Positions 43,233 to 64,000 of a DNA stretch of 64,000 nt are shown here, piece after piece; the first letter of the stretch is position 1; each line of letters opens with the position of its first letter. The stretch covers positions 310,001 through 374,000 of the forward strand of contig NZ_CP029642.1 of NCBI RefSeq assembly GCF_003268655.1. The letters are read 5' to 3'. The notes below the pieces were generated by a model, which did no database searches, was not told where the DNA came from, and saw only the letters and a program-made list of their open reading frames with translations. Source of the stretch: Arthrobacter dokdonellae (GTDB taxonomy: Bacteria; Actinomycetota; Actinomycetes; Actinomycetales; Micrococcaceae). The position numbers and the translations under genes were made by a program.

Positions 43233-43247
43233 TTTCATAATATGAAA
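43233..43247. promoter_or_regulatory. IclR-type palindrome upstream of bcp
   Basis: TTTCATAATATGAAA: perfect 7-bp arms around one base, 43 bp before the bcp start codon. It matches the boxes at 43.9, 48.5 and 58.3 kb (TTTCA-N5-TGAAA). Confidence 0.7.
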
Positions 43248-43289
43248 ATCACAGAGCCGTGACGTCCGAGAAACCAACCTGGGAGCACC

Positions 43290-43757
43290 ATGCCTGCACA
43301 ACTTGCCGCCGGAAACCCGGCACCGAACTTTTCCCTACCCAACGCCGCCGGAGGGCAGGTCTCACTGGCCGATTACGCCGGGCGCCGGGTGGTGGTCTAT
43401 TTCTACCCGAAGGCCGCCACTCCCGGCTGCACCACCGAGGCCTGCGACTTTCGCGACAGCCTCTCAGCGCTCAACAGCGCCGGGGTTGACGTCGTGGGCA
43501 TCTCCACCGATCCGCAGGAAGACCTTGCGAAGTTCACGGAGGAATTCGAGCTGAACTTCCCCCTGCTTTCCGACGTCAATCACGAGGCTGCAGAGGCGTG
43601 GGGCGCCTGGGGCGAGAAAAAAATCAACGGAACCACGCTGATTGGAACGCTTCGCTCGACCATTGTGGTCAACGCCGACGGCACCGTCCAGTCCGCCGAG
43701 TACAACGTTGCCGCAGACGGCCACGTTGCACGCCTGCGCCGTGAGCTGGGCCTCTAG
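43290..43757 (+). CDS. bcp: Thioredoxin-dependent thiol peroxidase (Bcp/PrxQ)
   Basis: 155 residues. KAATPGCTTEACDFRD contains the peroxidatic Cys47 and resolving Cys52 of atypical 2-Cys peroxiredoxins. It reduces H2O2 and organic hydroperoxides with thioredoxin in the cytoplasm. GGGAGCACC precedes the start. It lies directly before the urate-oxidation genes and carries the same type of palindrome upstream, so it probably removes the H2O2 made by urate oxidase. Confidence 0.95.
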   Translation: MPAQLAAGNPAPNFSLPNAAGGQVSLADYAGRRVVVYFYPKAATPGCTTEACDFRDSLSALNSAGVDVVGISTDPQEDLAKFTEEFELNFPLLSDVNHEAAEAWGAWGEKKINGTTLIGTLRSTIVVNADGTVQSAEYNVAADGHVARLRRELGL

Positions 43758-43811
43758 GGTCCCCCAGGGCGAGCCGTGCCGGCGGGTTCCATCCTGCCCT
43801 GCACGTAGTGA

Positions 43812-43857
43812 AGGCCCGGGAGTGCGCCACGCACAAAAGTGGCGCACTCCCGGGCCT
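43812..43857 (+). terminator. Strong hairpin after bcp
   Basis: A perfect 19-bp stem (AGGCCCGGGAGTGCGCCAC and its complement) with an 8-nt loop. There is no T run, but the length suggests a terminator or transcript-protecting hairpin. Confidence 0.7.
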
Positions 43858-43938
43858 CAGCTGTTCCAGCGGACAGGCAAGGGACCGGCAACGAAACAAG
43901 AACTCGGCATTGACAACGTTCATGTGATGCTGTTCACT

Positions 43939-43988
43939 ATTCATATGCTGAAATAACAGTTTCACGATACGAAAATATTCTTTCGTAT
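43939..43988. promoter_or_regulatory. Tandem IclR-type boxes upstream of uraD
   Basis: Three phased elements: ATTCATATGCTGAAA (43939), TTTCACGATACGAAA (43960) and a perfect ATACGAAA-N6-TTTCGTAT (43967-43988). TTTC and GAAA alternate about every 10.5 bp, one helical turn. They lie 49-98 bp before the uraD start. Confidence 0.72.
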
Positions 43989-44036
43989 AGCCAACGCCGT
44001 GAATGCCAGCATCGAGTCGCTAGGACAGCCCAAGCC

Positions 44037-44534
44037 ATGTTGCTTGAACACTTCAACGAAGCCGCGCCGGACGAGGTTTTGGCCGCACTTCGCCCCTGCA
44101 TTGACATCGAGCGTTGGGCTCGCGAGATCATCGCGGCCCGCCCGTTCTCCAGCGTTCGCGAGCTCATGGAGATGGCCGGAAACGCTGCCAGCCCCTTCAC
44201 GGCTGACGAAGTAGCCTCTGCCATGGCCCACCATCCCCGGATCGGTGAGCGGGCTGCCGGAGCGGGAGCCGAAGCGGAGCTGTCCCGCCAGGAACAGTCA
44301 GCAGTGGATCCCGCCAACGAACAGATCGTGCGCGCCTTGGCTGAGGGAAACCGTGCCTACGAAGCCAAATTTGACCAGGTCTTCCTGATCCGGGCCGCAG
44401 GACGCAGCCCGCAGGAGATCATCAACACCCTTCACCAGCGCATGGACAACACCGCTGAGGAAGAAAACCTCATAGTAGCCGAGCAGCTTCGCGAAATTGC
44501 ACTGCTGCGACTCGAAGGAGTGATGAGCGCGTGA
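44037..44534 (+). CDS. uraD: OHCU decarboxylase
   Basis: 165 residues. The family motif HPRIG (His66) and SRQEQSAVD follow FSSVRELMEMAG. UraD decarboxylates 2-oxo-4-hydroxy-4-carboxy-5-ureidoimidazoline to S-allantoin, the third step after urate oxidase. First of three overlapping genes (uraD-uraH-uaZ) that together convert urate to allantoin. ATG 44037 has only a distant AGGACA upstream; the translation start is otherwise well placed for the family. Confidence 0.95.
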   Translation: MLLEHFNEAAPDEVLAALRPCIDIERWAREIIAARPFSSVRELMEMAGNAASPFTADEVASAMAHHPRIGERAAGAGAEAELSRQEQSAVDPANEQIVRALAEGNRAYEAKFDQVFLIRAAGRSPQEIINTLHQRMDNTAEEENLIVAEQLREIALLRLEGVMSA

Positions 44535-44872
44535 GCGTCTCCCATATAACCACCCACATTCTGGATACCGCGGCAGGGAAACCCGCAGCAGGTGTCGCCG
44601 TCGAGCTTTACGCCCGCGACGGCGGGGCATGGGTCCAGATTGCGTCGGGCACCACTGATGCTGACGGGCGGGTGAAAGACCTTGGCCCCGAGCGGCTGCA
44701 AAGCGGCAACTACCAGCTGCAGTTCGACACGGGAGCCTACTTCGCCGGCATCAATACGGACACCTTCTTTCCGGAGGTAACCCTGACCTTTGCGGTCGAG
44801 GAGAGCCAGGGGCACTACCACGTGCCGCTGCTGCTGAGTCCATTCGCCTATTCGACATACCGAGGAAGTTAA
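44531..44872 (+). CDS. uraH: 5-hydroxyisourate hydrolase (transthyretin-like)
   Basis: 113 residues from GTG 44531, which overlaps the uraD stop (GTGA). N-terminal HITTHILDTAAGKPA and C-terminal YSTYRGS are the diagnostic ends of HIU hydrolases. It opens 5-hydroxyisourate to OHCU, the step between urate oxidase and UraD. Homotetrameric, cytoplasmic. Confidence 0.96.
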   Translation: MSVSHITTHILDTAAGKPAAGVAVELYARDGGAWVQIASGTTDADGRVKDLGPERLQSGNYQLQFDTGAYFAGINTDTFFPEVTLTFAVEESQGHYHVPLLLSPFAYSTYRGS

Positions 44873-44874
44873 TC

Positions 44875-45786
44875 ATGACTGAGAACAACATCATCCTGGG
44901 CGCCAACCAGTACGGCAAGGCCGAGGTCCGCCTGGTCAAGATCACCCGCGACACCGACCGCCACGAGGTCGAAGACCTCAACGTCACCTCCCAGCTGCGC
45001 GGCGACTTCCAGGCCGCCCACCTCGAGGGCGACAACGGCCACGTGGTCCCCACCGACACCCAGAAGAACACCGTCTACGGCTTTGCCCGTGACGGCGTCG
45101 GCTCCCCCGAAGCCTTCCTGGTCCGCCTCGGCGACCACTTCACCAGCGAGTTTGACTGGGTCACCGGCGGCCGCTGGGCGGCCGAGCAGTACGCCTGGAA
45201 CCGCATCCAGGCCGGCGGCCAGGGCCACGACCACTCCTTCGTCAAGAGCAACCAGGAGATCCGCACGGCCGTCGTCGTCAAGGATGGCGCGGACACGCAC
45301 ATCCTCGGTGGCCTGAGCAACCTCACCGTTCTCAAGTCCACCCAGTCCGGCTTCGAGGGCTTCCCGCGGGACAAGTACACCACCCTGCAGGAAACCAACG
45401 AGAGGATCATGAGCACGGATGTTGCAGCCCGCTGGCGCTTCAACCCGGCCAAGGTCAGCGGAGACTTTGACTTCAACGCCTCCTACGAGAGCGTGAAGGC
45501 GCTGTTGCTGGAGGGCTTCAGCGAGAACTTCTCCCACGCCCTGCAGACCACGATGTTCGAAATGGGCACGAAGGTCCTTCAGGCCCACCCGGAGATTGAC
45601 GAGATCAAGTTCTCCATGCCGAACAAGCACCACTTCCTCGTTGACCTCTCGCCATTCGGCCAAGACAACCCCAACGAGGTCTTCTTCGCCGCAGACCGTC
45701 CCTACGGCCTGATCGAGGGAACCGTCCTGCGTGAAAACGCATCGGATGCCGGCAACGCCTGGGACGGCGTCGCAGGCTTCTGCTAA
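44875..45786 (+). CDS. uaZ: Urate oxidase (uricase)
   Basis: 303 residues. Active-site pieces are all visible: NQYGKAEVRLVKI (Lys of the triad), VVPTDTQKNTVY (Thr) and PNKHHFLVDLSPFG (His). The cofactor-free enzyme oxidises urate with O2 to 5-hydroxyisourate and H2O2. ATG 44875 follows the uraH stop by 2 bp (TAATCATG) and the uraH end supplies GAGGAAG as ribosome binding site. The terminator at 45818 closes the operon. Confidence 0.96.
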   Translation: MTENNIILGANQYGKAEVRLVKITRDTDRHEVEDLNVTSQLRGDFQAAHLEGDNGHVVPTDTQKNTVYGFARDGVGSPEAFLVRLGDHFTSEFDWVTGGRWAAEQYAWNRIQAGGQGHDHSFVKSNQEIRTAVVVKDGADTHILGGLSNLTVLKSTQSGFEGFPRDKYTTLQETNERIMSTDVAARWRFNPAKVSGDFDFNASYESVKALLLEGFSENFSHALQTTMFEMGTKVLQAHPEIDEIKFSMPNKHHFLVDLSPFGQDNPNEVFFAADRPYGLIEGTVLRENASDAGNAWDGVAGFC

Positions 45787-45817
45787 AACCAGCAGTTCGA
45801 ACCACCAGTAGCACGCG

Positions 45818-45852
45818 GTGGGCGGGGGTGAACCACATACGTCCCCGCCCAC
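45818..45852 (+). terminator. Terminator of uraD-uraH-uaZ
   Basis: 10-bp stem GTGGGCGGGG / CCCCGCCCAC, 15-nt loop, 31 bp after the stop. Confidence 0.65.
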
Positions 45853-45916
45853 TGAATAGTCGCACCCAACCTGGGCGCAGCACTTTAGTAGAGGTAAGCA
45901 GACAAGGAGGTCCGCT

Positions 45917-47419
45917 ATGACCAGAAAATCGAAATCGGCCAGCCGCACGGCACCGTTGCGGCCGGAAGATGAAAAGCTCGGTATCGGGGCAAGTTTTGCC
46001 TACGGGTTCCAGCATGTTTTGACCATGTATGGGGGAATCGTTGCCGTACCCCTGATCATCGGCCAGGCCGCCGGCCTGGACTCCGCGAACATCGGCCTGC
46101 TCATCGCGGCCTGCCTTTTCATGGGCGGCCTGGCAACCATCCTCCAGACGGTGGGCGTGCCGTTCTTCGGCTCCCAGCTCCCGCTGGTCCAGGGCGTCTC
46201 CTTCGCCGGTGTGGCAACCATGCTGGCAATCGTCAGCACCAAGGGCAGCGACGGTCAGCCCCTGGGGATCCAAGCCGTCTTTGGTGCGGTCATCGTGGCT
46301 TCCCTTGTCGGCCTGGCGATTACGCCCATCTTTTCCAAGATCATCCGTTTCTTCCCTCCGGTTGTCACCGGAACCGTCATCACCACCATCGGACTGTCGC
46401 TGTTGCCGGTGGCGGCCAACTGGGCCATGGGCGGCAACAGCAAGGCCCCCAATTACGGCAGCATGGGCAACATTGGTCTGGCCGCTCTGACCCTCGTCAT
46501 CGTACTGCTCCTGAGCAAGCTGGGCAGCGCCACCATCTCACGCCTGTCCATCTTGCTGGCCATGATCATCGGCACGATTGTGGCAGCGGCCTTCGGGGTG
46601 GCTGACTTCTCCCAGGTCGGCAATGGTCCCATCGCCGCGTTCCCCACTCCGTTCCACCTCGGCCTGCCCACCTTCCACGTGGCCGCGATCGTCTCGATGA
46701 TCATCGTTATCCTGGTGACCCTGGTCGAAACGTCGGCGGACATCCTGGCCGTGGGCGACATCGTGGACACCAAGATTGATTCCCGCCGCCTTGGCGACGG
46801 ACTGCGTGCCGACATGATCTCCAGCGCCGTGGCGCCCGTCTTTGGCTCCTTCACGCAAAGCGCCTTCGCCCAGAACGTGGGACTCGTGGCCGTCACGGGC
46901 ATCAAGAGCCGCTTCGTGGTGGGTGCCGGCGGCGTCATCCTGGTACTCCTCGGCATCCTGCCCATCATGGGCCGCGTCGTGGCTGCCGTCCCTACCCCCG
47001 TCCTCGGTGGTGCCGGCATTGTCCTGTTCGGCACGGTGGCCGCCAGCGGCATCCGCACGCTGTCCACGGTCAGCTACAAAAACAATATGAACCTGATCAT
47101 CGTCGCCACGTCACTGGCCTTCGGCGTCATCCCGATTGCCGCCCCGACGTTCTACGACCAGTTCCCCGCCTGGTTCCGGACCATCTTCGAATCCGGCATC
47201 AGCTCCGCCGCGGTCGTTGCGATTCTGCTGAATCTGCTCTTCAACCACTTCAAGTTTGGCAACCCTGACAACCCGTCCGTGTTTGCCGCGGGAACCGACA
47301 GGCTCATCCCGGCCGAGGTGGTGGACTGCCTGGAGCATGGCGACCACTGGGAAGACGGCAAACTCCTTGACGCGGAAGGCAAGGAAGTCCCCATCCGCCC
47401 GGTCGAGGCCGACCACTAA
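45917..47419 (+). CDS. NCS2 xanthine/urate permease
   Basis: 500 residues with about twelve to fourteen hydrophobic helices. The nucleobase signature QGVSFAGVATM and FVETSAD-like ETSADILAVGDIV motif place it in the nucleobase-ascorbate (NAT) branch that moves xanthine or urate with protons. AAGGAGG lies 7 nt before the start. It follows the urate genes but after a terminator, so it probably has its own promoter in 45853-45916, where I see no IclR-type box. Confidence 0.93.
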   Translation: MTRKSKSASRTAPLRPEDEKLGIGASFAYGFQHVLTMYGGIVAVPLIIGQAAGLDSANIGLLIAACLFMGGLATILQTVGVPFFGSQLPLVQGVSFAGVATMLAIVSTKGSDGQPLGIQAVFGAVIVASLVGLAITPIFSKIIRFFPPVVTGTVITTIGLSLLPVAANWAMGGNSKAPNYGSMGNIGLAALTLVIVLLLSKLGSATISRLSILLAMIIGTIVAAAFGVADFSQVGNGPIAAFPTPFHLGLPTFHVAAIVSMIIVILVTLVETSADILAVGDIVDTKIDSRRLGDGLRADMISSAVAPVFGSFTQSAFAQNVGLVAVTGIKSRFVVGAGGVILVLLGILPIMGRVVAAVPTPVLGGAGIVLFGTVAASGIRTLSTVSYKNNMNLIIVATSLAFGVIPIAAPTFYDQFPAWFRTIFESGISSAAVVAILLNLLFNHFKFGNPDNPSVFAAGTDRLIPAEVVDCLEHGDHWEDGKLLDAEGKEVPIRPVEADH

Positions 47420-47448
47420 GAAGCCAAGCACCAAGCGGTTCCTTCGGC

Positions 47449-47497
47449 AACGCCGTCGGCCCCCATTCCAAGACATGGATTGGGGGCCGACGGCGTT
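47449..47497 (+). terminator. Terminator of the NCS2 permease gene
   Basis: 17-bp perfect stem AACGCCGTCGGCCCCCA / TGGGGGCCGACGGCGTT, with TCCA/TGGA pairing inside the loop and TTT after it. Confidence 0.88.
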
Positions 47498-47509
47498 TGG
47501 AGCGGCGGT

Positions 47510-48295
47510 TCAGCCCCTGCCGATGTACGGCATTCCCGAGGCCGTGATTACCAGGGAGCCAATGGTGGCCGAGGCCGGCAGCTGCGCCATCATCAACACG
47601 GCCCGGGCTGCGTCGGCCACCGGAAAGGTAGGCTCCACCCGCCGACTGCCGTCGGCCTGCAGGGCGCCCGTGGCCACGTCAAGGGTGGCCATGATCCCTG
47701 TGGAGGTGTTGCCGATGTCGATCTGGCCGCAGCTAATGCCGAAGGCCCGCCCATCCAGCTCAATGGACTTGGTCAGGCCGGTCATGGCGTGCTTGCTCAC
47801 GGTGTACGCCACGGATCGTGGACGCGGAGAGTGGGCGGAAATGGAGCCGTTGTTGATGATCCGCCCGCCCTGGGGTTTCTGGCGCTGCATGGTGCGCACG
47901 GCCCCGGCAGCGCACAGCATGGACCCGGTGAGGTTCACGGCCAGCGTGGCATTCCAGTCTGCCAGGGAGATCTCCTCAACCGACTGCGAGGGCCCGAAGG
48001 TGCCGGCGTTGTTGAAGAGCACGTCCACGCGGCCAAACCGTTCCACGGCCTGGGCGAAAAGAGCTGCCACCTGCGCCTCGTCGCACACGTCGGTGGGCAC
48101 CACGAGCGCTTGCGCGTGGCCTTCTGCGGTTGCCAACAGCTCGTTTTCCCTCCGGCCCGCCAAAACCACGTTGAAGCCGGCGACAAGGGCCTGTCGGGCC
48201 ACGGCACGGCCGATCCCGGACCCGGCGCCCGTCACGACGAGCACCTTGGCGCCGGTGTCTTCCTGCGGCTGCTGCGGCGCGGGCTGTTCATTCAT
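47510..48295 (-). CDS. Short-chain dehydrogenase/reductase
   Basis: 261 residues from ATG 48295 (AAGGAGCAGAC upstream; the frame is open to 48481 without a site). Classical SDR: TGAGSGIG cofactor loop (about 27-34), NNAG, catalytic Ser in NNGSISAHS and YTVSK. It uses NAD(P)H; the substrate is unknown. Orientation is opposite to the purine genes on both sides, so its link to purine breakdown is only positional. Confidence 0.92.
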   Translation of the reverse strand: MNEQPAPQQPQEDTGAKVLVVTGAGSGIGRAVARQALVAGFNVVLAGRRENELLATAEGHAQALVVPTDVCDEAQVAALFAQAVERFGRVDVLFNNAGTFGPSQSVEEISLADWNATLAVNLTGSMLCAAGAVRTMQRQKPQGGRIINNGSISAHSPRPRSVAYTVSKHAMTGLTKSIELDGRAFGISCGQIDIGNTSTGIMATLDVATGALQADGSRRVEPTFPVADAARAVLMMAQLPASATIGSLVITASGMPYIGRG

Positions 48296-48693
48296 GTCTG
48301 CTCCTTCTTGGGCGGGTACTTGGCACCCTGGGTCATTGGGAACTGGGTCATGGCGGCTTGGGTTCCATCCCATCACAGGCGCGCCCGGACGGGCAGCTTT
48401 GGGCGTGCACGCGGCGGCCGGCGCTTGGCTCAGCCCCGTAGTGTGGCGCTGCCCGAATTTCGTCTTATCCGTCCCAGCCATCCACCATGCGGGACATGTG
48501 TTGCATCACGCCGCCACACCCAGTAATCTCAACATACAAGATTTATCTTTCACACAGTGAAAAAAATTGTTCGATGTCACGCAAAGGACTTCCCCAGCCC
48601 ATAGTCTTCGTTCGACGAAGAACGCACGACGGGCGGAAACAGGCCACCTCACCATCGCCGGGGTGTGCGAATGCGATCTGAAAAGAGAAATCA
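48296..48693. other. Divergent region between the SDR gene and aceE
   Basis: 398 bp, no credible gene. It holds the IclR-type box at 48548 and must contain both promoters. No RNA motif recognised. Confidence 0.6.
48548..48562. promoter_or_regulatory. IclR-type palindrome upstream of aceE
   Basis: TTTCACACAGTGAAA, perfect 6-bp arms around ACA, 131 bp before the aceE start. Confidence 0.72.
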
Positions 48694-51435
<2,742 letters not shown>

Positions 51436-51441
51436 CACCCA

Positions 51442-51476
51442 CCGGCGCGCCCACGCCCAAAGGTCGGGCCCGCCGG
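51442..51476 (+). terminator. Terminator-like hairpin after aceE
   Basis: CCGGCG-C-GCCC pairs with GGGC-C-CGCCGG, one mismatch, 13-nt loop, 6 bp after the aceE stop; no T run. Confidence 0.5.
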
Positions 51477-51507
51477 AACCCAAGTTCCGACGGGGAGTGG
51501 GTGGAGA

Positions 51508-51513
51508 TACATT
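51508..51513 (+). promoter_or_regulatory. -10 box of leaderless mocA-like gene
   Basis: TACATT, 7 nt before ATG 51521. Confidence 0.45.
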
Positions 51514-51520
51514 GGATGCC

Positions 51521-52156
51521 ATGGCGAACACGACGGCGGTCCTGCTGGCGGCTGGGGCCGGAACCCGGCTGGGGCACGGACCCAAAGCACTGCTGCCGTT
51601 CCGCGGCGGCACCCTCGTGGAGCATGCAGCCGCCGTCCTGCGGGACGGCGGCTGCAGCGATGTCGTCGTCGTCGTAGGTGCGGGAGCAGCTGAGGTCGCG
51701 GCCCTGCAGCAGCCAGGATCAGCGCTGGCCGGCTGCCGGCTCGTACGCAATGACGATTGGGCGTCAGGCATGGGCGGATCGTTCCACCTGGGCGTTGAAT
51801 CGATGCGGGCCGGGCACAACGTGCTGGTGGCCCTGGTGGACCAGCCCGGGGTGTCCCCGGCTCTCGTGGCCAGATTGAATGCCGCCCACCGCCCGGGCCG
51901 CATCACGGCCGCCGGCTACCATGGCGCGACCGGCGGCCTGCACCGGGGCCACCCCATCATCTTCGACCCGCTCCTGGCCGTCCAGGCGGCGGCCATCTCA
52001 AACGGCGACGTCGGAGCCAGGGATTTCCTGCGCTCACACCCCGAGCTGATCGACCTGGTGGACTGCATTGACCTCTTCGACGGCGCCGACCTGGACACCG
52101 AGTCTGATCTGCACCTGCTCGGTGGTCCCGCAGCTTCAGGGGCAACCGGGGGATAG
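51521..52156 (+). CDS. MocA/MobA-like nucleotidyltransferase (molybdenum cofactor)
   Basis: 211 residues from ATG 51521. The N-terminal LLAAGAGTRLGHGPKALLPF is the nucleotide-binding loop of MobA/MocA enzymes, and VALVDQPGVSPALVARL is their metal-site DXP motif. MocA adds CMP to molybdopterin for xanthine dehydrogenase-type enzymes; the adjacent convergent xanthine dehydrogenase makes this the natural partner. The GTG at 51497 is less likely because TACATT stands 7 nt before the ATG. Confidence 0.88.
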   Translation: MANTTAVLLAAGAGTRLGHGPKALLPFRGGTLVEHAAAVLRDGGCSDVVVVVGAGAAEVAALQQPGSALAGCRLVRNDDWASGMGGSFHLGVESMRAGHNVLVALVDQPGVSPALVARLNAAHRPGRITAAGYHGATGGLHRGHPIIFDPLLAVQAAAISNGDVGARDFLRSHPELIDLVDCIDLFDGADLDTESDLHLLGGPAASGATGG

Positions 52157-55057: not shown

Positions 55058-55933
55058 TCAGGGCCTTTCGCTTGCGGCGTGACTCGGGGTGCCGAGCAGT
55101 TCGGCACGGATTTCCTCGGCCAGCCGGTAGGTCATGTCGCGCCGCCACTGGGGCAGCCCGTGGATGTCGTCGTGGTAGAGCTCCGCCGGGATGGCGTCGT
55201 CCAGGGCACGGCGCAGCTCCGCGGCGCCCGGTCCGGCCGCACTGCGCGTGTCCTTCGCGGCGCCCGCGAAGCGCACCTGTACCGGCCGCTTGGTGGAAGC
55301 GGTCACGGTCAGGACCAGTCCGCCGTCGTGTGTCAGCCGGCCGATCAAAAGGACGCCGGAACGGCCAAGGTTACTGAGCGAAAGCCGCCGGAATGCCGCC
55401 CGGGAATTCAGGGCTGCGGCGGGCAGGTGGATGCTGCGCAGGAGTTCCCCCGGTGCCAGGCTGGTGCGGGCGTCGCCCACCACCAGGTCAGCCACCGGGA
55501 CCTGCCGGCTCCGGCCGCCTGGTTCCAGGACGGTGGCCGTCCCGTCCAGGGCGGCGCACAGGGAGGTCATGGGGCCCGCCGGCAGGGCCGTGCAGATGTT
55601 GCCTCCTACCGTGGAGGCGTTCCAGATCTTGAACGACGCCACAAACGAGTCGCAGCACAGCCGGACCAGTTCCATCGCCGCCCAGTTGCGTGGCAGGCCC
55701 GGGCGGTCCGGGAGCGCGTACAGCTCGGCGATGGTGCAGGTGGCCGCCAGCTCGATCCCGCCGCGGTCCACCTCGATGGCGGGCCAGCCCGCGGCGGTCA
55801 GGTCCAGCAGGCGGCGCAGCGTGGTGCTGCCGTAGGAAAACAGCACGGTGCCGCCGGCCAGCCACGCGTCTCCGGGCCGCCAGGCGGCGGGGTCGGCGGT
55901 GGCCACCACCTCTTCAATCGTGTTCATGTCCAT
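55058..55933 (-). CDS. Xanthine dehydrogenase FAD-binding subunit
   Basis: 291 residues from ATG 55933 (AGGAGG 5 nt upstream). Typical FAD motifs of the CO/xanthine dehydrogenase medium subunit: WLAGGTVLFSYG (AGGT) and ASTVGGNICTALPAGP (TIGGN). It passes electrons from the Fe-S clusters to NAD or another acceptor. Translationally linked to the fused large subunit. Confidence 0.92.
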   Translation of the reverse strand: MDMNTIEEVVATADPAAWRPGDAWLAGGTVLFSYGSTTLRRLLDLTAAGWPAIEVDRGGIELAATCTIAELYALPDRPGLPRNWAAMELVRLCCDSFVASFKIWNASTVGGNICTALPAGPMTSLCAALDGTATVLEPGGRSRQVPVADLVVGDARTSLAPGELLRSIHLPAAALNSRAAFRRLSLSNLGRSGVLLIGRLTHDGGLVLTVTASTKRPVQVRFAGAAKDTRSAAGPGAAELRRALDDAIPAELYHDDIHGLPQWRRDMTYRLAEEIRAELLGTPSHAASERP

Positions 55934-56050: not shown

Positions 56051-57568
56051 TTAGGCAATCCCGAGGATCTGCTGGAGGGGACCGATGCCGAAGTACACCA
56101 CAAAGGCCGCGGCGACGCCCCACATCAGCGCGTGCACCTCCCGCGCCCGGCCCTGCACCACCCGGATGACGACGTAGGCGATGAACCCGGCACCCAGTCC
56201 GTTGGCGATCGAGTAGGTGAACGGCATCAGGATGAACGTCAGGAACGCCGGGATGGCAATGCCATAGTCGCTCCAATCGACCCTGCGGACCTGGGAGGCC
56301 ATCATGAACCCGACAATGACCAGGGCGGGAGCCACGGCCTCGAACGGGACAATGGCCACCAGCGGCGCAAAGAATGCCGCCAGCAGGAACAGCCCGCCCG
56401 TGACGAGGCTCGCCAGCCCCGTTCGCGCGCCCTCGGCGATGCCGGCTGCCGACTCGACGAAGATCTCATTGGCGGAGACCGAGCCAAAGCCGCCGGCCAT
56501 GGAACCCGCGGCGTCGACCAGCAGCACCCGGTTGGCGTTCTTCATGTTGTTGTTCTCGTCAACCAGCCCGGCCTCGCTGGCCAGCCCCGTCATGGTGCCC
56601 ATCGCGTCAAAGAACACGCTGAGCAGGATGGTGAAGGTCAGCAGCAGGGCGGACATGAGCCCCAGGTGGGCGAAGGCGCCAAACACGTCGACCTTGCCTA
56701 TCAGCGACAGGTCAGGCAGGGAAAAGAACGTTCCAGGCACCACCGGCACCATGAGCGACCAGCCGGAGGGGTCGGTCTGGCTGGAGGCCGTGTGGGTGAA
56801 AAGCTGGAGTCCCATGGCGAACAGCGTGGAGGCGATGATGCCGATCAGGATGCCGCCCTTGACCTTGCGCACCACCAGGATGATGGTCAGCACCAGCCCA
56901 AACACAAACACGAGCGTGGGCCAGCCCAGCAGTTTGCCGTCCTGGCCCAGCTGCACCGGCACGGTGGTGTGCGCGGCGTCAGGCACGCGGCGGACAAACC
57001 CGGCGTTCACGAGCCCGATGATGGCGATGAACAGGCCGATCCCCACCACGATGGCGGTCTTGAGCCCGGCCGGGACGGCCCGCATGACGGCCTCCCGCAG
57101 TCCGGAGATGACCAGGACGAACATGACGATCCCGGCAATGAGCACCAGGCCCATGACCTCCGGCCAGGTCAGGTTCTTGGTGGTGGCGATGGTGGCCGAG
57201 ACGAAGGCGTTCACGCCCAGCCCGGCGGCGAGCGCAAAGGGATATTTTGCCCAGGCGCCCATCACGATGGTGGTCACGCCGGCGACGACGGCGGTCACGG
57301 CCGCCACCTGCGGTATGCCCAGCGTGTGGCCGGAGCCGTCCGCCGAGCTGAGGATCAGCGGGTTGAGGACCACGATGTAGCACATGGCGAAGAACGTGGC
57401 CAGGCCGCCGCGGAATTCGCGCAGGACGTTGGAGCCGCGCGCCGTGATTTCAAAGTAGCGGTCAATCGACCGTGCGAGCCCGCGCTGGCGTGCTGGCGGG
57501 ACGGAGCCGGTGGGGGTCACCATGTCATGGCCGGCCTTGTCCTTGCCGGTCTTATTCAGGAGTGCCAT
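56051..57568 (-). CDS. AzgA-family (NCS2) guanine/hypoxanthine permease
   Basis: 505 residues from ATG 57568. AzgA-branch signatures: GSNVLREFRGGLATFFAMCYIVVLNPLIL, FALAAGLGVNAFVSATI, FFDAMGTMTGLASEAGLVD. This branch takes up guanine, hypoxanthine or adenine by proton symport, complementing the xanthine/urate branch permease at 45.9 kb. It lies 14 bp after the deaminase guaD in the same direction. Confidence 0.93.
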   Translation of the reverse strand: MALLNKTGKDKAGHDMVTPTGSVPPARQRGLARSIDRYFEITARGSNVLREFRGGLATFFAMCYIVVLNPLILSSADGSGHTLGIPQVAAVTAVVAGVTTIVMGAWAKYPFALAAGLGVNAFVSATIATTKNLTWPEVMGLVLIAGIVMFVLVISGLREAVMRAVPAGLKTAIVVGIGLFIAIIGLVNAGFVRRVPDAAHTTVPVQLGQDGKLLGWPTLVFVFGLVLTIILVVRKVKGGILIGIIASTLFAMGLQLFTHTASSQTDPSGWSLMVPVVPGTFFSLPDLSLIGKVDVFGAFAHLGLMSALLLTFTILLSVFFDAMGTMTGLASEAGLVDENNNMKNANRVLLVDAAGSMAGGFGSVSANEIFVESAAGIAEGARTGLASLVTGGLFLLAAFFAPLVAIVPFEAVAPALVIVGFMMASQVRRVDWSDYGIAIPAFLTFILMPFTYSIANGLGAGFIAYVVIRVVQGRAREVHALMWGVAAAFVVYFGIGPLQQILGIA

Positions 57569-57582
57569 TTCCGCCGCCCGCC

Positions 57583-58068
57583 CTAATAGTCGATCCGGGT
57601 GGCGAGGCTGTTCCACGTGACAAAGGGGGCCAGTGGATCGGTGGCGCCGGGTGCCAGCTGGCGCACGGGCATGGGCCGCTGCTCCACGGGGGTGTCGAAG
57701 TAGTCGTAGAAGGCGGCGTCGTCGAAGCCGGCGCGGGCGGCGTCGTGCCTGTCAGCGGCGTAGAACACCTTGTCCACACGGGCCCAGAGGGCCGAGGCGA
57801 GGCACATGGGGCATGGCTCGCAACTGGTGTAGAGGGTGGCGCCGGTGAGGTCGAAGGTGCCCAGCGCCGTGCAGGCGCTGCGGATGGCGGTGACTTCCGC
57901 GTGGGCGGTGGGATCGTTGTTGGCCGTAACGCGGTTGATGCCGTCAAAGGCCCGCCCGTCGGCTGTGACGACGACGGCGCCGAAGGGCCCGCCGCTGTTC
58001 AGGACGTTGGCCGTGGCCAACTCCACTGCCCGGGCCAGGTGGTCCTGGCCGCTCTGATTGGTATTCAT
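57583..58068 (-). CDS. guaD: Guanine deaminase (cytidine-deaminase fold)
   Basis: 161 residues from ATG 58068 (AAGGAAG 6 nt upstream). Zinc site HAE (HAEVTAIRSAC) and PCXXC (SCEPCPMCLASALWARVDKVFYAA), then AGFDDAAFYDYF, the C-terminal signature of the GuaD subgroup rather than tRNA deaminases. It converts guanine to xanthine in the cytoplasm. It forms an operon with the AzgA-type permease, so uptake and first step are made together. Confidence 0.9.
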   Translation of the reverse strand: MNTNQSGQDHLARAVELATANVLNSGGPFGAVVVTADGRAFDGINRVTANNDPTAHAEVTAIRSACTALGTFDLTGATLYTSCEPCPMCLASALWARVDKVFYAADRHDAARAGFDDAAFYDYFDTPVEQRPMPVRQLAPGATDPLAPFVTWNSLATRIDY

Positions 58069-58263
58069 GGTGACTTCCTTGTCACTTTCGAGCACCCGGC
58101 AACTCATGTCCTTGCGGGACGCCCGTCTGGGGCCTCCACTTACCGGTGTGCACTTGGTTTGGATTCAAGATACGCCCGGTAGATAGCGGCCCTTCGCTGG
58201 GCGCCCGCCATAGACTTGAGGAAGACACTAACACCGGATTGTGAACCAGGCAACAGTTTTTTG

Positions 58264-58287
58264 GAAACTTGTTTTCACATCATGAAA
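58264..58287. promoter_or_regulatory. IclR-type box upstream of 8-oxoguanine deaminase
   Basis: TTTCACATCATGAAA (58273-58287; 5-bp arms) preceded by GAAA one helical turn earlier (58264-58267). Its centre is about 49 bp upstream of the expected transcription start and it abuts the -35 box. Confidence 0.7.
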
Positions 58288-58293
58288 GCAGCG

Positions 58294-58322: not shown

Positions 58323-58423
58323 GTGGCTGTGGCCGCTTTCGTCGGGCCAACCTGGATCAGCAGACAGGGTCATGGGAAGCAGCGCCTGTCACAGGCGGCG
58401 TCTTTCACGAGCAGGACAACACT

Positions 58424-58450: not shown

Positions 58451-58519
58451 TTCGTCATTGGCGCCGGGTTCCCGCGGGGCAGTCCACCGACCCCACGCAC
58501 CCGCAAGGACCCACTCACG

Positions 58520-59899
58520 ATGCACAGCACACCCGAAACGCCCCCGCCGCCGCGCCGCCTTTGGCTCAAGAACCCGCTGGCCGCCTTCTCCGCCAATGAC
58601 CTCGACGCCGGCGGCGGGGTGGTCATTTCCGGCGGCACCATCGACGAAGTGGTGGGTACCGGGCAGTCCCCCGCCGCGCCGTGCGACGACGTATTCGACG
58701 CCGGCCGGCACGTCATCACGCCGGGCCTGGTCAACACCCACCACCACTTTTACCAAACCCTCACGCGGGCCTGGGCCCCGGTGGCCAACGCCGAACTCTT
58801 CCCGTGGCTGAAGAACCTCTACCCGGTCTGGGCACGCCTGACCCCGCGCGACCTGGAACTCGCCACCACCGCGGCCCTGGCCGAGCTGCTCCTCTCCGGC
58901 TGCACGACGGCGGCCGATCACCATTACCTGTTTCCCGACGGACTCGAGGACGCCATCGACATCCAGGTCCGGGTGGTGCGCACGCTGGGCATGCGGGCCA
59001 CGCTGACCCGCGGTTCCATGTCCCTGGGCGAGAACGACGGCGGGCTGCCGCCGCAGTCCACGGTGCAGGACCCGGATGTGATCCTGGCCGACAGCGAACG
59101 GCTCGTGGCCGCCTACCACGAGCGTGGCGACGACGCCGTCATCCAGATCGCGCTGGCCCCGTGCTCCCCTTTCTCCGTCACACGCGGGCTCATGGCGGAA
59201 AGCGCCCAGCTGGCCGAACGGCTGGACGTGCGGCTGCACACGCACCTGGCGGAAACCCTCGACGAGGAGGACTTCTGCCGCGAGCGCTTTGGCCTGCGCA
59301 CCGTGGACTACCTGGAAAGCGTGGGCTGGCTGACGTCCCGCACCTGGCTGGGGCACGGCATCCACTTTGACGACGCCGAGATCACCCGGCTGGGGGCCGC
59401 GGGAACCGGCGTGGCCCACTGCCCGACGTCGAACATGAGGCTGGCGTCCGGCACGGCGCGCGTCCTGGAACTCGAGTCTGCCGGCGTCCCGGTGGGCCTG
59501 GGCGTGGACGGGTCCGCCTCCAACGACGCCTCCAACATGATCCTGGAAGCCCGCCAGGCGCTCTACCTGCAGCGGCTGCGCTACGGCGCCGGCGTCCGCG
59601 TGGAGCAGGCGCTCGGCTGGGCCACCCGGGGCTCGGCCCGGGTGCTGGGAAGGGACAGCCTGGGCGAGATTGCCCCCGGGCGCCAGGCCGACCTGGCCCT
59701 GTTCACCCTCGACGAGCTGCGCTTCTCGGGCTCGCACGACCCGGTGGCCGCCCTGCTCCTCTGCGGCGCCGACCAGGCGGACAGGGTCATGGTGGGCGGG
59801 GAGTGGCGCGTGGTCGACGGGCAGGTTCCGGGCCTGGACCTGGGCGCGCTCATTGCCGAACACAGCACGGCGGCCCGCCGGCTGGTGAACGGCGATTGA
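58520..59899 (+). CDS. 8-oxoguanine deaminase / guanine-type amidohydrolase
   Basis: 459 residues. Amidohydrolase metal site NTHHHFYQTLTRAW, then HTHLAETLDEEDFC, GHGIHFDD, HCPTSNMRLASG and VDGSASNDASNM, the set seen in 8-oxoguanine deaminases and AtzB-like enzymes. It deaminates 8-oxoguanine (to urate) or guanine. AAGGACC lies before the start. It may feed oxidised purine bases straight into the urate pathway, by-passing xanthine dehydrogenase; guanine is the main alternative substrate. Confidence 0.88.
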   Translation: MHSTPETPPPPRRLWLKNPLAAFSANDLDAGGGVVISGGTIDEVVGTGQSPAAPCDDVFDAGRHVITPGLVNTHHHFYQTLTRAWAPVANAELFPWLKNLYPVWARLTPRDLELATTAALAELLLSGCTTAADHHYLFPDGLEDAIDIQVRVVRTLGMRATLTRGSMSLGENDGGLPPQSTVQDPDVILADSERLVAAYHERGDDAVIQIALAPCSPFSVTRGLMAESAQLAERLDVRLHTHLAETLDEEDFCRERFGLRTVDYLESVGWLTSRTWLGHGIHFDDAEITRLGAAGTGVAHCPTSNMRLASGTARVLELESAGVPVGLGVDGSASNDASNMILEARQALYLQRLRYGAGVRVEQALGWATRGSARVLGRDSLGEIAPGRQADLALFTLDELRFSGSHDPVAALLLCGADQADRVMVGGEWRVVDGQVPGLDLGALIAEHSTAARRLVNGD

Positions 59900-60005
59900 T
59901 GCCCGCGGTCGAGCAGCGGGACCCGCACTCCGAGCTGTTGTGCGCGGCCGCCAGTCCGAGCGAAGCCCAGTGCAGCGCAGCGCACTTCACCCCAGTCGGC
60001 GCCGG

Positions 60006-60761
60006 CTAGTTGCTGTTCATCTCCGCCGAAATGACCGCGGCGGCCGCCTCCAGCATGGGCACGGCGCGGTCTGCAAAGGCCTGGTCGACGCGGGTGACGG
60101 GTCCGGAGACGGAGATGGCGGTCGGGGTGGGGGCATGCGGGACGGCCATGGCAAAGCAGCGCACGCCAAGCTCCTGCTCCTCCTCGTCAATGGAGTAGCC
60201 GCGTGCGCGGATCAGTTCCAGATCAGCCAGCAGCTCATCGATGGTGCCCAGGCTTTTGCTGGTGGGTGTGGGCATGCCCTGCCTGGAAATGATGCCGCGC
60301 ACGGCGTCGTTATCCAGCTGGGCAAGAAGCGCCTTACCCACCCCAGTGTCGTGCGTGTGGGCTCGACGGCCCACCTCGGTGAACATACGCATCGAGTGCG
60401 GCGAAGGGACCTGGGCAATGTAGATGACCATGTCCGATTCCAGCACAGCCATGTTGGCCGTCTCACCCAAGCGGTCAACCAAAGACTTCAATTGAGGCCG
60501 GGCCAGCGCACCCAGCTGCCTGTTGGCTCCCTCGCCCAGGCGAATGAGCCGCGGGCCCAGCGCGTAGCGGCGGTTGGGCAGCTGGCGAATGTAGCCCAGC
60601 GACACCAAGGTCCGCAGCAGCCGGTGGATGGTGGGCAGCGGCAGGTCCGTCGAGCCGGAGAGTTCACTTAAAGTCACATCGCCGCCAGCATCCGTGATGA
60701 GTTCGAGCAGCTCAAACACCCGTTCGACTGACTGCACGCCACCGCTTGCCTTTGCCGCCAT
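60006..60761 (-). CDS. IclR-family transcriptional regulator of purine use
   Basis: 251 residues from ATG 60761, with AGGAG 8 nt upstream (ATG 60767 is only 2 nt from it). N-terminal winged helix (VQSVERVFELLELITDAGGDVTLSELSGSTDLPLPTIHRLLRTLVSLGYI, about 9-58) and C-terminal ligand domain (VGKALLAQLD, EEEQELGVRCFAMAVPHAP). IclR relatives such as AllR control allantoin/glyoxylate genes and sense glyoxylate or allantoin. Likely regulator of the boxes listed here, including the one at its own promoter. Convergent with the 8-oxoguanine deaminase. Confidence 0.92.
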   Translation of the reverse strand: MAAKASGGVQSVERVFELLELITDAGGDVTLSELSGSTDLPLPTIHRLLRTLVSLGYIRQLPNRRYALGPRLIRLGEGANRQLGALARPQLKSLVDRLGETANMAVLESDMVIYIAQVPSPHSMRMFTEVGRRAHTHDTGVGKALLAQLDNDAVRGIISRQGMPTPTSKSLGTIDELLADLELIRARGYSIDEEEQELGVRCFAMAVPHAPTPTAISVSGPVTRVDQAFADRAVPMLEAAAAVISAEMNSN

Positions 60762-60833
60762 TGCCATTTCTCCTGTTTTGTTGGGCATGAGCCCGTCCAT
60801 ACCGCGGCATCTACCGAAGGAAATATCCGCATC

Positions 60834-60851
60834 GTGAAAACTGTGTTTCAC
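60834..60851. promoter_or_regulatory. IclR-type palindrome at the iclR promoter
   Basis: GTGAAA-N6-TTTCAC, a perfect palindrome 73 bp upstream of the iclR start codon; it has the same GAAA-N6-TTTC layout as the third box before uraD. Confidence 0.7.
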
Positions 60852-60936
60852 CCCTAAAGATACAGCACCTCGCCGCATTTGCATCCAGCTGGTGGATGGG
60901 GCTTGTGTTTCCACTAGATAGATAATAATATCCATC

Positions 60937-60944
60937 ATACGAAA
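60937..60944. promoter_or_regulatory. Half-site upstream of malic enzyme
   Basis: ATACGAAA, identical to the left arm of the uraD box at 43967, 49 bp before the malic enzyme start; no matching right arm seen. Confidence 0.4.
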
Positions 60945-60992
60945 AGAAAATAGATTCCGACAGCCCCTCCGGGCCCACACAAAGGACATTCA

Positions 60993-62396
60993 ATGGCGAA
61001 CCCCAGCCCCGGAAACTCCATCACCCTCCGCGTCAGCGCCCCTTCCAACTTCACCGTCACCAGTGAATTGGCCGCCGCCGTGGCAGCGTCCGGGGCAGCC
61101 GTGACCGCCCTGGATGTGACGGAGTCCCACCACGAAAAAATCACCGTGGACATCACCGCCAACACCACCGATGACGCCCACGCGGACCGCGTACGTGACG
61201 CACTGGAAGCATTGGAGGGCGTCTCCGTCCTTCACGTCTCGGACCGCACCTTCCTCATGCACCTGGGCGGCAAGCTCGAGGTCAACTCCAAGTTCGTTAT
61301 TCGCAACCGTGACGACCTTTCCCGCGCCTACACCCCCGGTGTCGCCCGCGTCTGCATGGCCATCCACGACGATCCTGCCGCAGCCCGGAACCTGACCGTC
61401 AAGCGCAACACCATCGCCGTGGTCACCGACGGCACCGCGGTCCTGGGCCTGGGTGACATTGGCCCGGCGGCCGCACTTCCGGTCATGGAAGGCAAGGCGG
61501 CGCTGTTCAAGCAGTTCGCCAATGTCGATGCCTGGCCTGTGTGCCTGGACACCAAGGACACCGAAGAGATCATCATGATCGTCAAGGCCATGGCCCCGGT
61601 CTACGGCGGCATCAACCTTGAAGACATCGCCGCACCGCGCTGCTTTGAAATTGAGCGCCGTCTCAAGGAAGAGCTGGACATCCCGGTTTTCCACGACGAT
61701 CAGCACGGCACGGCCATTGTGACCCTGGCGGCACTGACCAACGCCTTGAAGGTCGTGGAGAAAAAGATCGAAAGCGTCAAGATTGTCGTCGCTGGTGTCG
61801 GCGCTGCCGGCAACGCCATCATCCAGCTCCTGCTGGCCCAGGGGGCGAAGAACATCGTGGCCTGTGGCCGCAATGGTGCTGTGAACCGCAACGAGTCCTA
61901 CACAGACGCGCACCGCACCTGGCTGGCCAACAACACCAACCCGGAGAACTTCGACGGAACGCTGCACGAGGCCATGGCCGGGGCGGACGTCTTTATCGGA
62001 GTCAGCGGCCCGAACGTCCTTGGCGAGGACCAGGTTGCCTCGATGGCCAAGGACTCGATCGTGTTCGCCATGGCCAACCCCACCCCCGAAGTGGACCCGG
62101 TCGTCGCCTCCAGGCACGCCGCCGTCGTGGCCACGGGCCGCAGCGACTTTCCCAACCAGATCAACAATGTCCTGGCGTTCCCCGGCTTCTTCCGCGGACT
62201 GCTCGACGCGGGCGTGTCCGACATCACCGACGATATGCTGGTCGCAGCAGCCTCCGCCATTGCCAACCGCGTGGACGCCTCCGAACTGAATGCCAGCTAC
62301 ATCATTCCCAGCGTCTTCGACCCGCATGTGGCCGGCGACGTCGCCTCCGCAGTGGCCGCCGCGGCAGGATCATCGAACGAAAGGACGCAGTCATGA
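60993..62396 (+). CDS. NAD-dependent malic enzyme with ACT domain
   Basis: 467 residues. N-terminal ACT regulatory domain (about 10-85), then the malic enzyme core: [37 protein letters not shown] (metal site) and [16 protein letters not shown], plus the NAD fold GVGAAGNAI. It oxidatively decarboxylates malate to pyruvate. AAGGA is 6 nt before the start. Its stop overlaps the malate synthase start (ATGA), so the two are made together: glyoxylate plus acetyl-CoA gives malate, then pyruvate. The ACT domain may bind an amino acid or an end product. Confidence 0.95.
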
Positions 62397-64000
62397 CCAA
62401 CGCCTCCCTCCCCACCGCCTCCGTTGCCGTCACGGATCCTACCCCGATTCCCCGCGCCGGCGAGATCCTGACGCCCGGCGCCCTGGCGTTCGTCGCGGAA
62501 CTTAACCGCCGCTTCAACCCGGTCCGCAAGGAGCGGCTGGCCGAGCGCACCTCGAAGCGCGAGCGTGCCGCGGCCACCGGCGGCCTGGACTTCCTGCCCG
62601 AAACAGCCAGCGTCCGCGCCGGCGGCTGGAAGGTGGCTTCGGCCCCCCCTGCGCTGGCGGACCGGCGCGTGGAGATGACCGGACCGGCGTCGCCGGCCAA
62701 GATGGCCATCAACGCGCTCAACTCCGGCGCCAAGGTGTGGCTGGCCGACCTCGAGGACGCCAGCACCCCCCTCTGGGCAAACGTGGTGGACGCTGTCCTG
62801 AACCTGCGCGATGCCGCGCAGGGCACCCTGTCCTACACCTCCCCCGAAGGCAAGGAATACCGCCTCCGCACGGACGCCCCGCTGTCCGTGGTCGTCGCCC
62901 GCCCCCGCGGCTGGCACCTGGAGGAAAGCCACGTGCTGGTCGACGGCGAACCCAGCTCGGGCGCCCTGGTGGACTTTGGCCTGCACTTCTTCCACACGGC
63001 CAAGCTGCTTCTCGCCAACGGCCAGGGTCCGTATTACTACCTGCCGAAGATGGAAAGCCATCTCGAGGCAAGGCTCTGGAACGACGTCTTTATGTTTGCC
63101 CAGGACTACCTCGGCATCCCGCAGGGAACCGTGCGCGCCACCGTGCTCATCGAAACGATCCCCGCCGCCTTTGAAATGGACGAGATCCTCTACGAATTGC
63201 GCGAACATGCCTCGGGGCTGAACGCCGGACGCTGGGATTACCTCTTCAGCATCATCAAGTATTTCCGGGACGCCGGCGCCGCCTTTGTCCTCCCGGACCG
63301 CGGCCAGATCACCATGACCGCGCCGTTCATGCGTGCCTACACCGAACTGCTGGTGAAGACGTGCCACCATCGCGGCGCCTTCGCCATGGGTGGCATGGCT
63401 GCCGTCATCCCCAACCGGCGGGAGCCCGAGGTTACCGCCGCAGCCTTTGACAAGGTCCGAGCGGATAAGACACGTGAGGCCAATGACGGCTTTGACGGCT
63501 CTTGGGTGGCACACCCGGACCTGGTCCCCGTCTGTCGAGAAGTATTCGATTCAGTCCTCGGTGAGAACCCCAACCAGCTTCAGAAGCAACGACCGGAAGT
63601 CCGTGTCAATGCCTCCGAGTTGTTGGACATCGCCTCCGCCAAGGGCACAGTGACCGAGGAAGGGCTGCGCCTGAACCTCTACGTGGCCGTCGCCTACACC
63701 GCCGTCTGGCTCTCCGGCAGCGGCGCCGTGGCCATCCACAACCTCATGGAAGACGCCGCCACGGCTGAAATCTCCCGCTCCCAGGTGTGGCAGCAGATCC
63801 ACAACGCCGTCACGCTCGCGGACACCGGCAGGACCGTCACCCGCGAGCTTGTCCAGGAAATCCTGGCCGAGGAAACGGCAAAGCTCCACGGTGAGGTGGG
63901 CGACAACGCTTTTGCCAAGTACTACAAGCCGGCCAGTGACCTGATCGCGGACATCTGCCTCTCGGAGGATTACACCGACTTCCTGACGGTACCGGCCTAC
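62393..64000 (+). CDS. aceB: Malate synthase A (partial at right edge)
   Basis: 536 codons visible, nearly the full family length; the last residues lie outside the window. Signatures: [53 protein letters not shown] and [13 protein letters not shown], the malate synthase A type (not the long G type). It condenses glyoxylate with acetyl-CoA to malate. ATG overlaps the malic enzyme stop. No isocitrate lyase gene is adjacent, which fits a role with ureide-derived glyoxylate rather than the glyoxylate shunt. Confidence 0.95.

Follow-up and report, generated by a model that had tools for sequence, protein, structure and literature searches.

The 64,000-nucleotide stretch of the Arthrobacter dokdonellae genome analysed here (C1:310001-374000; hereafter the window) carries, amid genes for purine catabolism, a copy of aceE, the gene for the E1 component of pyruvate dehydrogenase (PDH). 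The genome comprises 4.53 Mb in two contigs and is labelled G000 among the genomes compared below. Our best explanation, which we hold as a whole with considerable confidence, is that the DNA at 43233..64000 of the window represents the left two thirds of a purine-catabolic regulon, and that its aceE and the housekeeping aceE form an old pair at two fixed addresses, kept alike by recurrent gene conversion. From its sequence, the island is predicted to encode the conversion of xanthine through urate to allantoin, the breakdown of allantoin, both routes for glyoxylate, and its own PDH E1 and E2.

Two aceE genes at separate addresses

The island aceE (48694..51435, + strand) matches TIGR00759 with 1369.3 bits, above the cut-off of 859.9. 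Residues 20-898 of its product align with the solved PDH E1 structure 1l8a (E 4e-300), and we predict that the protein acts as a homodimeric-type PDH E1. The original prediction, made from the window alone, had proposed a dedicated aceE copy within a purine island. The genome agrees with this proposal, as a second aceE lies at C1:3281761-3284481 in the neighbourhood DUF3052-aceE-PucR-fabD-fabH-fabF, and the island gene is thus not the sole copy. The two genes are alike save for two bases over 2,738 bp, beginning at codon 9 and ending 20 bp beyond the stop codon. In the window, this homogenised tract spans 48718..51455 (+), with the two differing bases near its left end, and no similarity was found in the flanks beyond it.

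A scan of the family covered 158 genomes, at least 51 of which have two or more aceE matches, some of these being fragments. We compared 41 two-copy genomes, comprising 26 of the 51 together with five from a search of the genus (the first 31), and then ten more. Thus 36 of the 51 family-scan genomes were used, while 15 were omitted because of a partial copy, several fragments or unlisted coordinates; stretches L219 and L220 of genome G009 lie outside the analysis. The canonical aceE adjoins DUF3052 or PucR in all 41 genomes. Its purine-linked counterpart adjoins a purine-island gene (at least 40% identity) in 35 of them, a short-chain dehydrogenase (SDR) gene alone in four, and no marker within the flank covered in two. 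No aceE locus bears both kinds of neighbour at this level of identity.

In a codon tree, both copies of a genome are sisters in 16 of the 41 genomes, with a support of at least 0.997 in 15 of these. The difference at 4-fold degenerate sites is below 10% in 12 of the first 31 pairs and in none of the ten later ones. Within the genus, 4-fold differences between the two copies of a genome amount to 0.2-4.4% in seven of the eight genomes and to 25.7% in G021; between genomes they range over 31-64%, with 2% in the closely related G018 and G019. The leaders upstream of the start codon in this genus are distinct at the two addresses and resemble each other from species to species at a given address, most clearly at the canonical one, which indicates that the two loci are old. 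The start codon is GTG at all eight canonical loci and ATG at six of the eight purine loci.

Conversion also appears to have stopped short in some genes. The last alignment window (about 130 nt) of the pairs in G172, G082, G148 and G161 is 23-32% different, as against 0-10% in the other windows. A comparison of G102 with G172 gives 247 sites that group by genome and 31 that keep the P|C (purine versus canonical) split, 28 of the latter lying in the last 300-nt bin. When site order was permuted 2,000 times, 16 of 31 pairs had a longest agreeing run above every permuted value, among them the mosaic pairs G021, G102, G111, G127, G133, G117 and G072. Together, the mosaic genes and the unconverted ends point to recurrent gene conversion.

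Outside the family, an order-wide search (110 genomes) listed two aceE genes in four genomes of family f6 (perhaps that of Brevibacterium) and in one of f16; those of f6 show 71-72% and 66-67% identity with the query and so are not homogenised. A scan of named genomes placed at least six of the 80 loci listed in a purine context (L058, L061, L062, L079, L081 and L082), and the matches listed contained no same-species aceE pair for the conversion test.

Co-occurrence with purine genes

The second aceE follows the purine genes within the genus. Among 23 same-genus genomes, six (G002, G003, G005, G010, G012 and G014) yielded neither urate oxidase nor allantoinase at the thresholds applied, and each of these has one aceE and one E2. 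Eight others (G000, G001, G006, G009, G011, G018, G019 and G021) have two resolved aceE genes, urate oxidase, allantoinase and two E2 genes. In all 14 same-genus genomes with resolved aceE, the second aceE is thus present or absent together with uox, allB and a second E2 (Fisher p 0.00033, relatedness ignored). The other nine genomes, all drafts, contain urate oxidase and allantoinase (a partial match in G020), and seven of the nine have a second E2. Their aceE is fragmented or missing, with G017 retaining one intact copy.

We also noted a pattern in the assemblies themselves. Eight of ten uox-bearing drafts with at least 20 contigs have no intact aceE (G004, G007, G008, G013, G015, G016, G020 and G022), while all three drafts without uox have an intact aceE (Fisher p 0.035 versus the uox-bearing drafts). 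The missing genes are likely explained by near-identical aceE repeats that are lost or broken in short-read assembly, and metabolic models built on such drafts would be misled.

A palindromic motif in the island promoters

We trained a position weight matrix (PWM) solely on the regions upstream of aceE in five related genomes and applied it with a threshold of 15.5. In an 82-kb stretch, six positions reach this score, every one in intergenic DNA of the island. They precede the peroxiredoxin gene (two positions), uraD, and the genes hyi-glxR-gcl-glxK-allB-E2, or lie in the gap of the deaminase pair and in the gap between iclR and the malic enzyme gene. In 400 dinucleotide shuffles of nine marked intergenic regions, at most one position reached 15.5.

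These operator-like sites were also compared with an exact pattern, TTTCRYNNNRTGRAA. The two sites before the peroxiredoxin gene (43209..43250), of the TTTC-N7-GAAA type, score 15.7 and 18.0, with an exact match at C1:353233-353247, and the site before uraD-hiuH-uox-pbuX (43957..43977, -) scores 21.6 and matches exactly. The palindrome between the two deaminase genes (58270..58290) scores 19.7 and 18.2 and also matches exactly; the site between iclR and malic enzyme (60927..60947, -) scores 17.0 and has no exact match. In the promoter region of aceE, the operator-like palindrome TTTCACACAGTGAAA (48545..48565, +) contains an exact match on both strands, at C1:358548-358562.

A second matrix, built from five non-aceE sites of this genome and used with a threshold of 14, identifies sites before the purine-linked aceE in all six relatives scanned. 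It also does so at iclR/malic enzyme in the four relatives that hold those genes in the stretch, where the site of G021 falls inside the 5' end of a long iclR open reading frame (ORF). Four of six canonical control loci have no site scoring 14 or more. These results suggest that one regulon, recognisable by the shared palindromic motif, comprises the urate genes, aceE, iclR/malic enzyme, the deaminases and the gcl-glxK-allB-E2 operon. Such a motif would also bear out the earlier proposal that aceE and malic enzyme are controlled together with the purine genes.

The motif resembles AT-rich sites of the IclR family tabulated in PMC8222616. The island encodes an IclR-family regulator (60006..60989, -; PF01614, PF09339), whose true start is probably inside the ORF, and which, judging from its neighbourhood, is the likely reader of the motif. 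A further match, scoring 23.1, lies outside the island at C1:293544 (L011:3544), with no open frame of 120 codons or more across it; this site may belong to another member of the regulon.

We also considered a second palindrome, GTTCGACGAAGAAC (48610..48623, +), located about 84 bp upstream of aceE, and rejected it as the regulon motif. Its exact form, GTTC-N6-GAAC, occurs once in the window, before aceE, and with up to two mismatches it gives 35 matches against 9.5 expected, scattered across the whole window. It precedes aceE at seven of eight same-genus purine loci and at none of eight canonical loci; in other genera, it was found within 400 bp before aceE in none of 23 pairs.

Dedicated copies and the E2 partners

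Three other island genes have counterparts elsewhere in the genome. The second malate synthase A is 58% identical to the island copy and adjoins isocitrate lyase, the second malic enzyme (C1:551858-553024) is 52% identical, and the second E2, which adjoins lipoamide dehydrogenase, is 62% identical. As housekeeping forms of aceE, malic enzyme, malate synthase and E2 are encoded elsewhere, the island copies are dedicated ones, and what had been suggested for aceE extends to its malate-cycle neighbours and to an E2. The identities of 62% (E2), 52% (malic enzyme) and 58% (malate synthase) rule out homogenisation of these three pairs. The housekeeping E2 contains two lipoyl domains and the island E2, which is of the actinobacterial type, contains one.

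E2 adjoins allB in 13 of the 25 E2 loci read, and we refer to these as purine-type E2. In a midpoint-rooted tree, 12 of the 13 form one clade; that of G009 falls on the side of the housekeeping clade, yet outside it. Judged by their sequences, the E2 twins are not homogenised, unlike those of E1, which would mean that E1 alone is kept the same while serving two E2 proteins. One reading of this difference is selection against mixed E1 dimers, and another is that only the E1 pair remained similar enough to recombine.

Fate of glyoxylate

The purine island extends 12 kb beyond the right end of the window, as revealed by a profile search of the adjoining stretch (L009, C1:372001-392000). This part contains DUF6986, ureidoglycine aminohydrolase/allantoate hydrolase, an AAA ATPase, hyi, tartronate semialdehyde reductase, gcl, glycerate kinase, allantoinase and E2. 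The linkage of the island genes recurs in relatives, so that their clustering is not due to chance. Candidates for allantoin breakdown here are the allantoinase and a protein (C1:375295-376110; L009:3295-4110) that passes two models, that of ureidoglycine aminohydrolase (478.5 bits, cut-off 338) and that of bifunctional allantoicase/ureidoglycine aminohydrolase (453.6, cut-off 350).

Ureide breakdown yields glyoxylate. Glyoxylate carboligase (Gcl), tartronate semialdehyde reductase and glycerate kinase convert it to 2-phosphoglycerate, and onward to pyruvate. Malate synthase and malic enzyme also lead to pyruvate, spending one acetyl-CoA, which pyruvate dehydrogenase returns. As both routes give pyruvate, both can end in pyruvate dehydrogenase.

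The original prediction placed the malate cycle in the island instead of the glyoxylate carboligase route. This part must be abandoned, because gcl (1095.5 bits, cut-off 711.2), tartronate semialdehyde reductase (TIGR01505, 364.2 bits, cut-off 340.75), hyi and glycerate kinase (TIGR00045, 377.5 bits, cut-off 168.45) are located 4-9 kb past the window end, within this island and behind the same motif. The dedicated copies and the shared motif support the proposed link of aceE and malic enzyme with the purine genes.

Other islands separate aceE from the malate cycle. Those of Brevibacterium iodinum and Flexivirga hold aceE and gcl, and neither malic enzyme nor malate synthase A was found in the stretches examined; those of Arthrobacter luteolus and Brevibacterium sediminis contain malic enzyme without malate synthase A. 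The first two islands indicate that the link to aceE is independent of that cycle. From these gene arrangements, aceE looks like a part of the purine island as such, with the malate cycle as an addition.

DUF6986 (C1:374018-375286; L009:2018-3286), located just right of the window, is present in purine islands even where malate synthase A was not found. The model of a DUF6986 homologue has the malate synthase/malyl-CoA lyase fold, and its alignment contains a DFED motif, which we take to be like that of malate synthase. The modelled fold makes DUF6986 a candidate for a new glyoxylate-condensing, malate-synthase-like enzyme. This leads to a combined proposal that we put forward tentatively and regard as doubtful: E1 homogenisation would be selected, since the homodimeric E1 has to bind two different E2 cores and diverged co-expressed twins would form mixed dimers and poison each other, and DUF6986 would be the glyoxylate-condensing enzyme that completes the cycle in islands without malate synthase A. 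If this were true, two promoters and two E2 proteins would let the cell switch PDH between housekeeping and purine feeding.

Other genes of the island

Profile matches place the purine-to-allantoin genes together with aceE, malic enzyme and malate synthase A, each where the original prediction had located it. Of the urate genes, uraD encodes 2-oxo-4-hydroxy-4-carboxy-5-ureidoimidazoline (OHCU) decarboxylase (44037..44534, +; TIGR03180, 185 bits, cut-off 139.4), hiuH encodes 5-hydroxyisourate (HIU) hydrolase (44531..44872, +; TIGR02962, 143.5 bits, cut-off 87.45), uox encodes urate oxidase (44875..45786, +; TIGR03383, 359.4 bits, cut-off 168.4) and pbuX encodes a xanthine/urate permease (45917..47419, +; TIGR03173, 499.9 bits, cut-off 414.15). 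Upstream of these genes is a thioredoxin-dependent peroxiredoxin of the Bcp/PrxQ type (43290..43757, +; NF006960, 158.9 bits, cut-off 140), which may scavenge the H2O2 released by urate oxidase. With two operator-like sites before it (window 43209-43757), it seems to be a member of the purine regulon.

An SDR gene (47510..48481, -; SDR families), with a true start probably near 48250, is divergent from aceE, and adjoins the purine-linked aceE in 32 of the 41 genomes compared. Downstream of aceE lies a MobA-like nucleotidyltransferase (51497..52156, +; PF12804, 108.9 bits; NF045782, 264.6 bits, cut-off 260). Its best NCBIfam name is nicotine blue oxidoreductase, and its sequence suggests that it probably serves molybdenum-cofactor maturation for the dehydrogenase that follows. 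This xanthine-dehydrogenase-type enzyme comprises fused 2Fe-2S and Mo subunits (52220..55054, -; PF02738, PF20256, PF01315, PF01799; XdhA family, below the equivalog cut-off) and an FAD subunit (55058..55933, -; PF00941). Both xanthine dehydrogenase and malic enzyme are named from domains and subfamily matches below curated NCBIfam cut-offs.

Beyond the dehydrogenase are an NCS2-type nucleobase permease (56051..57616, -; PF00860), a deaminase of the TadA/guanine deaminase type (57583..58107, -; PF00383) and an 8-oxoguanine deaminase (58520..59899, +; NF006055, 686.2 bits, cut-off 532). The iclR gene is followed by the second copy of malic enzyme (60993..62396, +; PF00390, PF03949) and by that of aceB, for malate synthase A (62393..64021, +), which extends 21 bp past the window, ends at C1:374021, and scores 735.3 bits with TIGR01344 on its in-window part (cut-off 594.5). 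To the right, the AAA ATPase gene (C1:376256-377761; L009:4256-5761) is located between ureidoglycine aminohydrolase and hyi, and is also present in G021, with 64% identity. At the far end, the E2 is readable from a GTG codon and overlaps the allantoinase stop codon by eight bases, which suggests coupled translation.

Alternative explanations

Several observations speak against our explanation or narrow its reach. The two copies are not sisters in 25 of the 41 genomes, and the proteins of 19 of the first 31 pairs are 5-21% different, which indicates that homogenisation is lineage-dependent. Even the sister pairs of G102, G039, G021, G066 and G027 differ at 14-39% of 4-fold sites. In the permutation test, 15 of the 31 pairs fall within the permuted range, being evenly agreeing throughout or evenly diverged, and the test treats sites as exchangeable, so that runs in conserved stretches can inflate its result. 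The promoter is not spared to the same point everywhere, since in genus g10 the two copies of a genome resemble each other in the leader immediately upstream of the start codon. Two uox-bearing drafts (G013 and G022) gave one E2 match only. As for the motif, the aceE site of this genome itself scores 13.7 with the five-genome PWM, below 15.5, and 24.3 if it is included in the training set; the strong match of 23.1 noted above lies in 83 kb of control DNA from this genome (L011). With the second matrix, G001 has a weak match (15.8) some 180 bp upstream of its canonical aceE (L134), and the canonical control locus L146 has an 18.6 palindrome far from aceE as well as a 14.7 match. The exact pattern occurs at seven places genome-wide, five of them in the island, and its reversed form at none, but this count is partly circular because the pattern is partly drawn from the sites of this genome; the PWM test is not circular. 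Finally, the functions and the regulon are predicted from sequence, and the regulator is assigned by its position in the island.

The near-identity of the two genes, up to 99.9% within a genome, would also fit fresh copies from independent recent duplications in each species, rather than conversion between old loci. Fresh copies would each time have to reach the purine neighbourhood and replace the existing aceE there, and the leaders in this genus are specific to the address and alike between species. There are also genes converted in part, with internal mosaics or 3' ends left as they were, and the mosaics in particular are hard to explain by duplication. On the strength of the leaders, ends and mosaics we reject this explanation, to which we give very little credence. 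The island aceE could instead be a dosage copy or passenger, neither needed by purine catabolism nor regulated by purines. Its protein is nearly the same as the housekeeping E1, and its own site scores just 13.7 with the independent matrix, against 24.3 when it is part of the training set; yet the linkage is kept across the family and in Brevibacterium and Flexivirga, the co-occurrence with uox, allB and the second E2 holds in 14 of 14 same-genus genomes with resolved aceE, and operator-like sites precede aceE here and in six of six relatives. We therefore consider a passenger unlikely.

Two further alternatives concern the reactions. The dedicated malate synthase, malic enzyme and aceE would suit a cell that uses glyoxylate through the dicarboxylic-acid (malate) cycle only, leaving Gcl unused on purines. 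This is very improbable given that hyi, tartronate semialdehyde reductase, gcl and glycerate kinase precede allantoinase and E2 behind the same motif, and that passages of PMC7486775 describe the glycerate route as the main one in Cupriavidus necator, with the malate cycle secondary. The purine E1-E2 pair might also act on a 2-oxo acid other than pyruvate, as the island E2 has one lipoyl domain and 62% identity with its housekeeping counterpart, and the purine E1 of diverged lineages differs from its twin by up to 21%. The E1 studied here, however, equals the housekeeping PDH E1 except for the first eight or so residues and matches a solved PDH E1 along its length, and E2 does not choose the 2-oxo acid; we see only a slim chance for another substrate.

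Proposed pathway

Under the explanation we prefer, an old aceE pair kept alike by conversion and a purine regulon with its own PDH, the IclR regulator would release the island units together on purines. Glyoxylate would then be converted to pyruvate by either the Gcl or the malate synthase/malic enzyme route, the former supplying carbon and the latter energy, with the purine-induced E1-E2 serving both. The extra PDH, with lipoamide dehydrogenase supplied by the housekeeping locus, would turn pyruvate into acetyl-CoA, which feeds the tricarboxylic acid cycle and malate synthase. Purine catabolism would thus lead all the way to acetyl-CoA, equipped with the two glyoxylate routes and an E1-E2 of its own. 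Gene conversion would copy the aceE coding sequence and end near the start and stop codons, so that each address keeps its own promoter. The outcome would be one E1 protein under two control systems with two different E2 partners.

Comparison with known systems

Taken singly, the purine genes, the malate cycle and the Gcl cluster have been described before; what is new, as far as the sequences allow, is the dedicated E1-E2 in a purine regulon and the conversion with the housekeeping gene. Among the literature matches listed, which cover open literature only, there is no report of aceE concerted evolution, of DUF6986 or of aceE in purine islands.

In the passages of PMC3534580 that treat purine use, Arthrobacter sp. 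Rue61a grows on allantoin as a carbon and nitrogen source. Like the present island, it has xanthine dehydrogenase, urate oxidase, HIU hydrolase and OHCU decarboxylase, and its allantoinase adjoins glycerate-pathway genes; these passages do not mention aceE or E2 there. The Rue61a genes for allantoate breakdown are called not obvious (PMC3534580), whereas a candidate protein lies in the island here, and by its profile matches the ureidoglycine aminohydrolase-type protein may fill this step. The allantoin-inducible cluster of Pseudomonas aeruginosa (PMC12694930) likewise has gcl, hyi, glxR and glxK beside purine catabolism. That cluster adds pyruvate kinase, and the main text of the paper is without the term pyruvate dehydrogenase; the additions in the present island are PDH E1 and E2, malic enzyme and malate synthase. 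In Cupriavidus necator, as described in the passages of PMC7486775 concerned, glyoxylate is used mainly through the glycerate route, with the malate cycle as an oxidative second. The two pathways stand side by side there as they do here, but Cupriavidus necator uses generally highly expressed genes, while the island holds dedicated malate synthase, malic enzyme, E1 and E2.

For the aceE pair, the closest parallels are found in Wang and Chen 2018 (PMC6053082), whose text and tables, as far as they are drawn on here, describe recurrent concerted evolution of paired genes such as tuf, tkt, dxs, psbA/psbD, amo/hao and mtrA. The survey lists 26 prokaryote genes, with durations of 48 to 3936 million years in its tables (PMC6053082). 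By its criteria, aceE shows conserved and distinct synteny, within-genome clustering in at least five species and similarity at synonymous sites. Like those pairs, the aceE loci have two different, conserved neighbourhoods, and the copies are closer within a genome than between genomes, synonymous sites included, in more than five species (PMC6053082). Unlike them, aceE appears in neither table of the survey and has one housekeeping address and one catabolic address with its own promoter motif; and while the survey found most such genes to be accompanied by partners within one complex or pathway (PMC6053082), the partner E2 is not homogenised here. Our findings would thus make a gene of central metabolism one of the few prokaryotic genes with recurrent concerted evolution, in a variant whose promoter escapes conversion, such that the same protein has two regulatory addresses. 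They also raise the testable question of why homogenisation was kept in some genera and lost in others.

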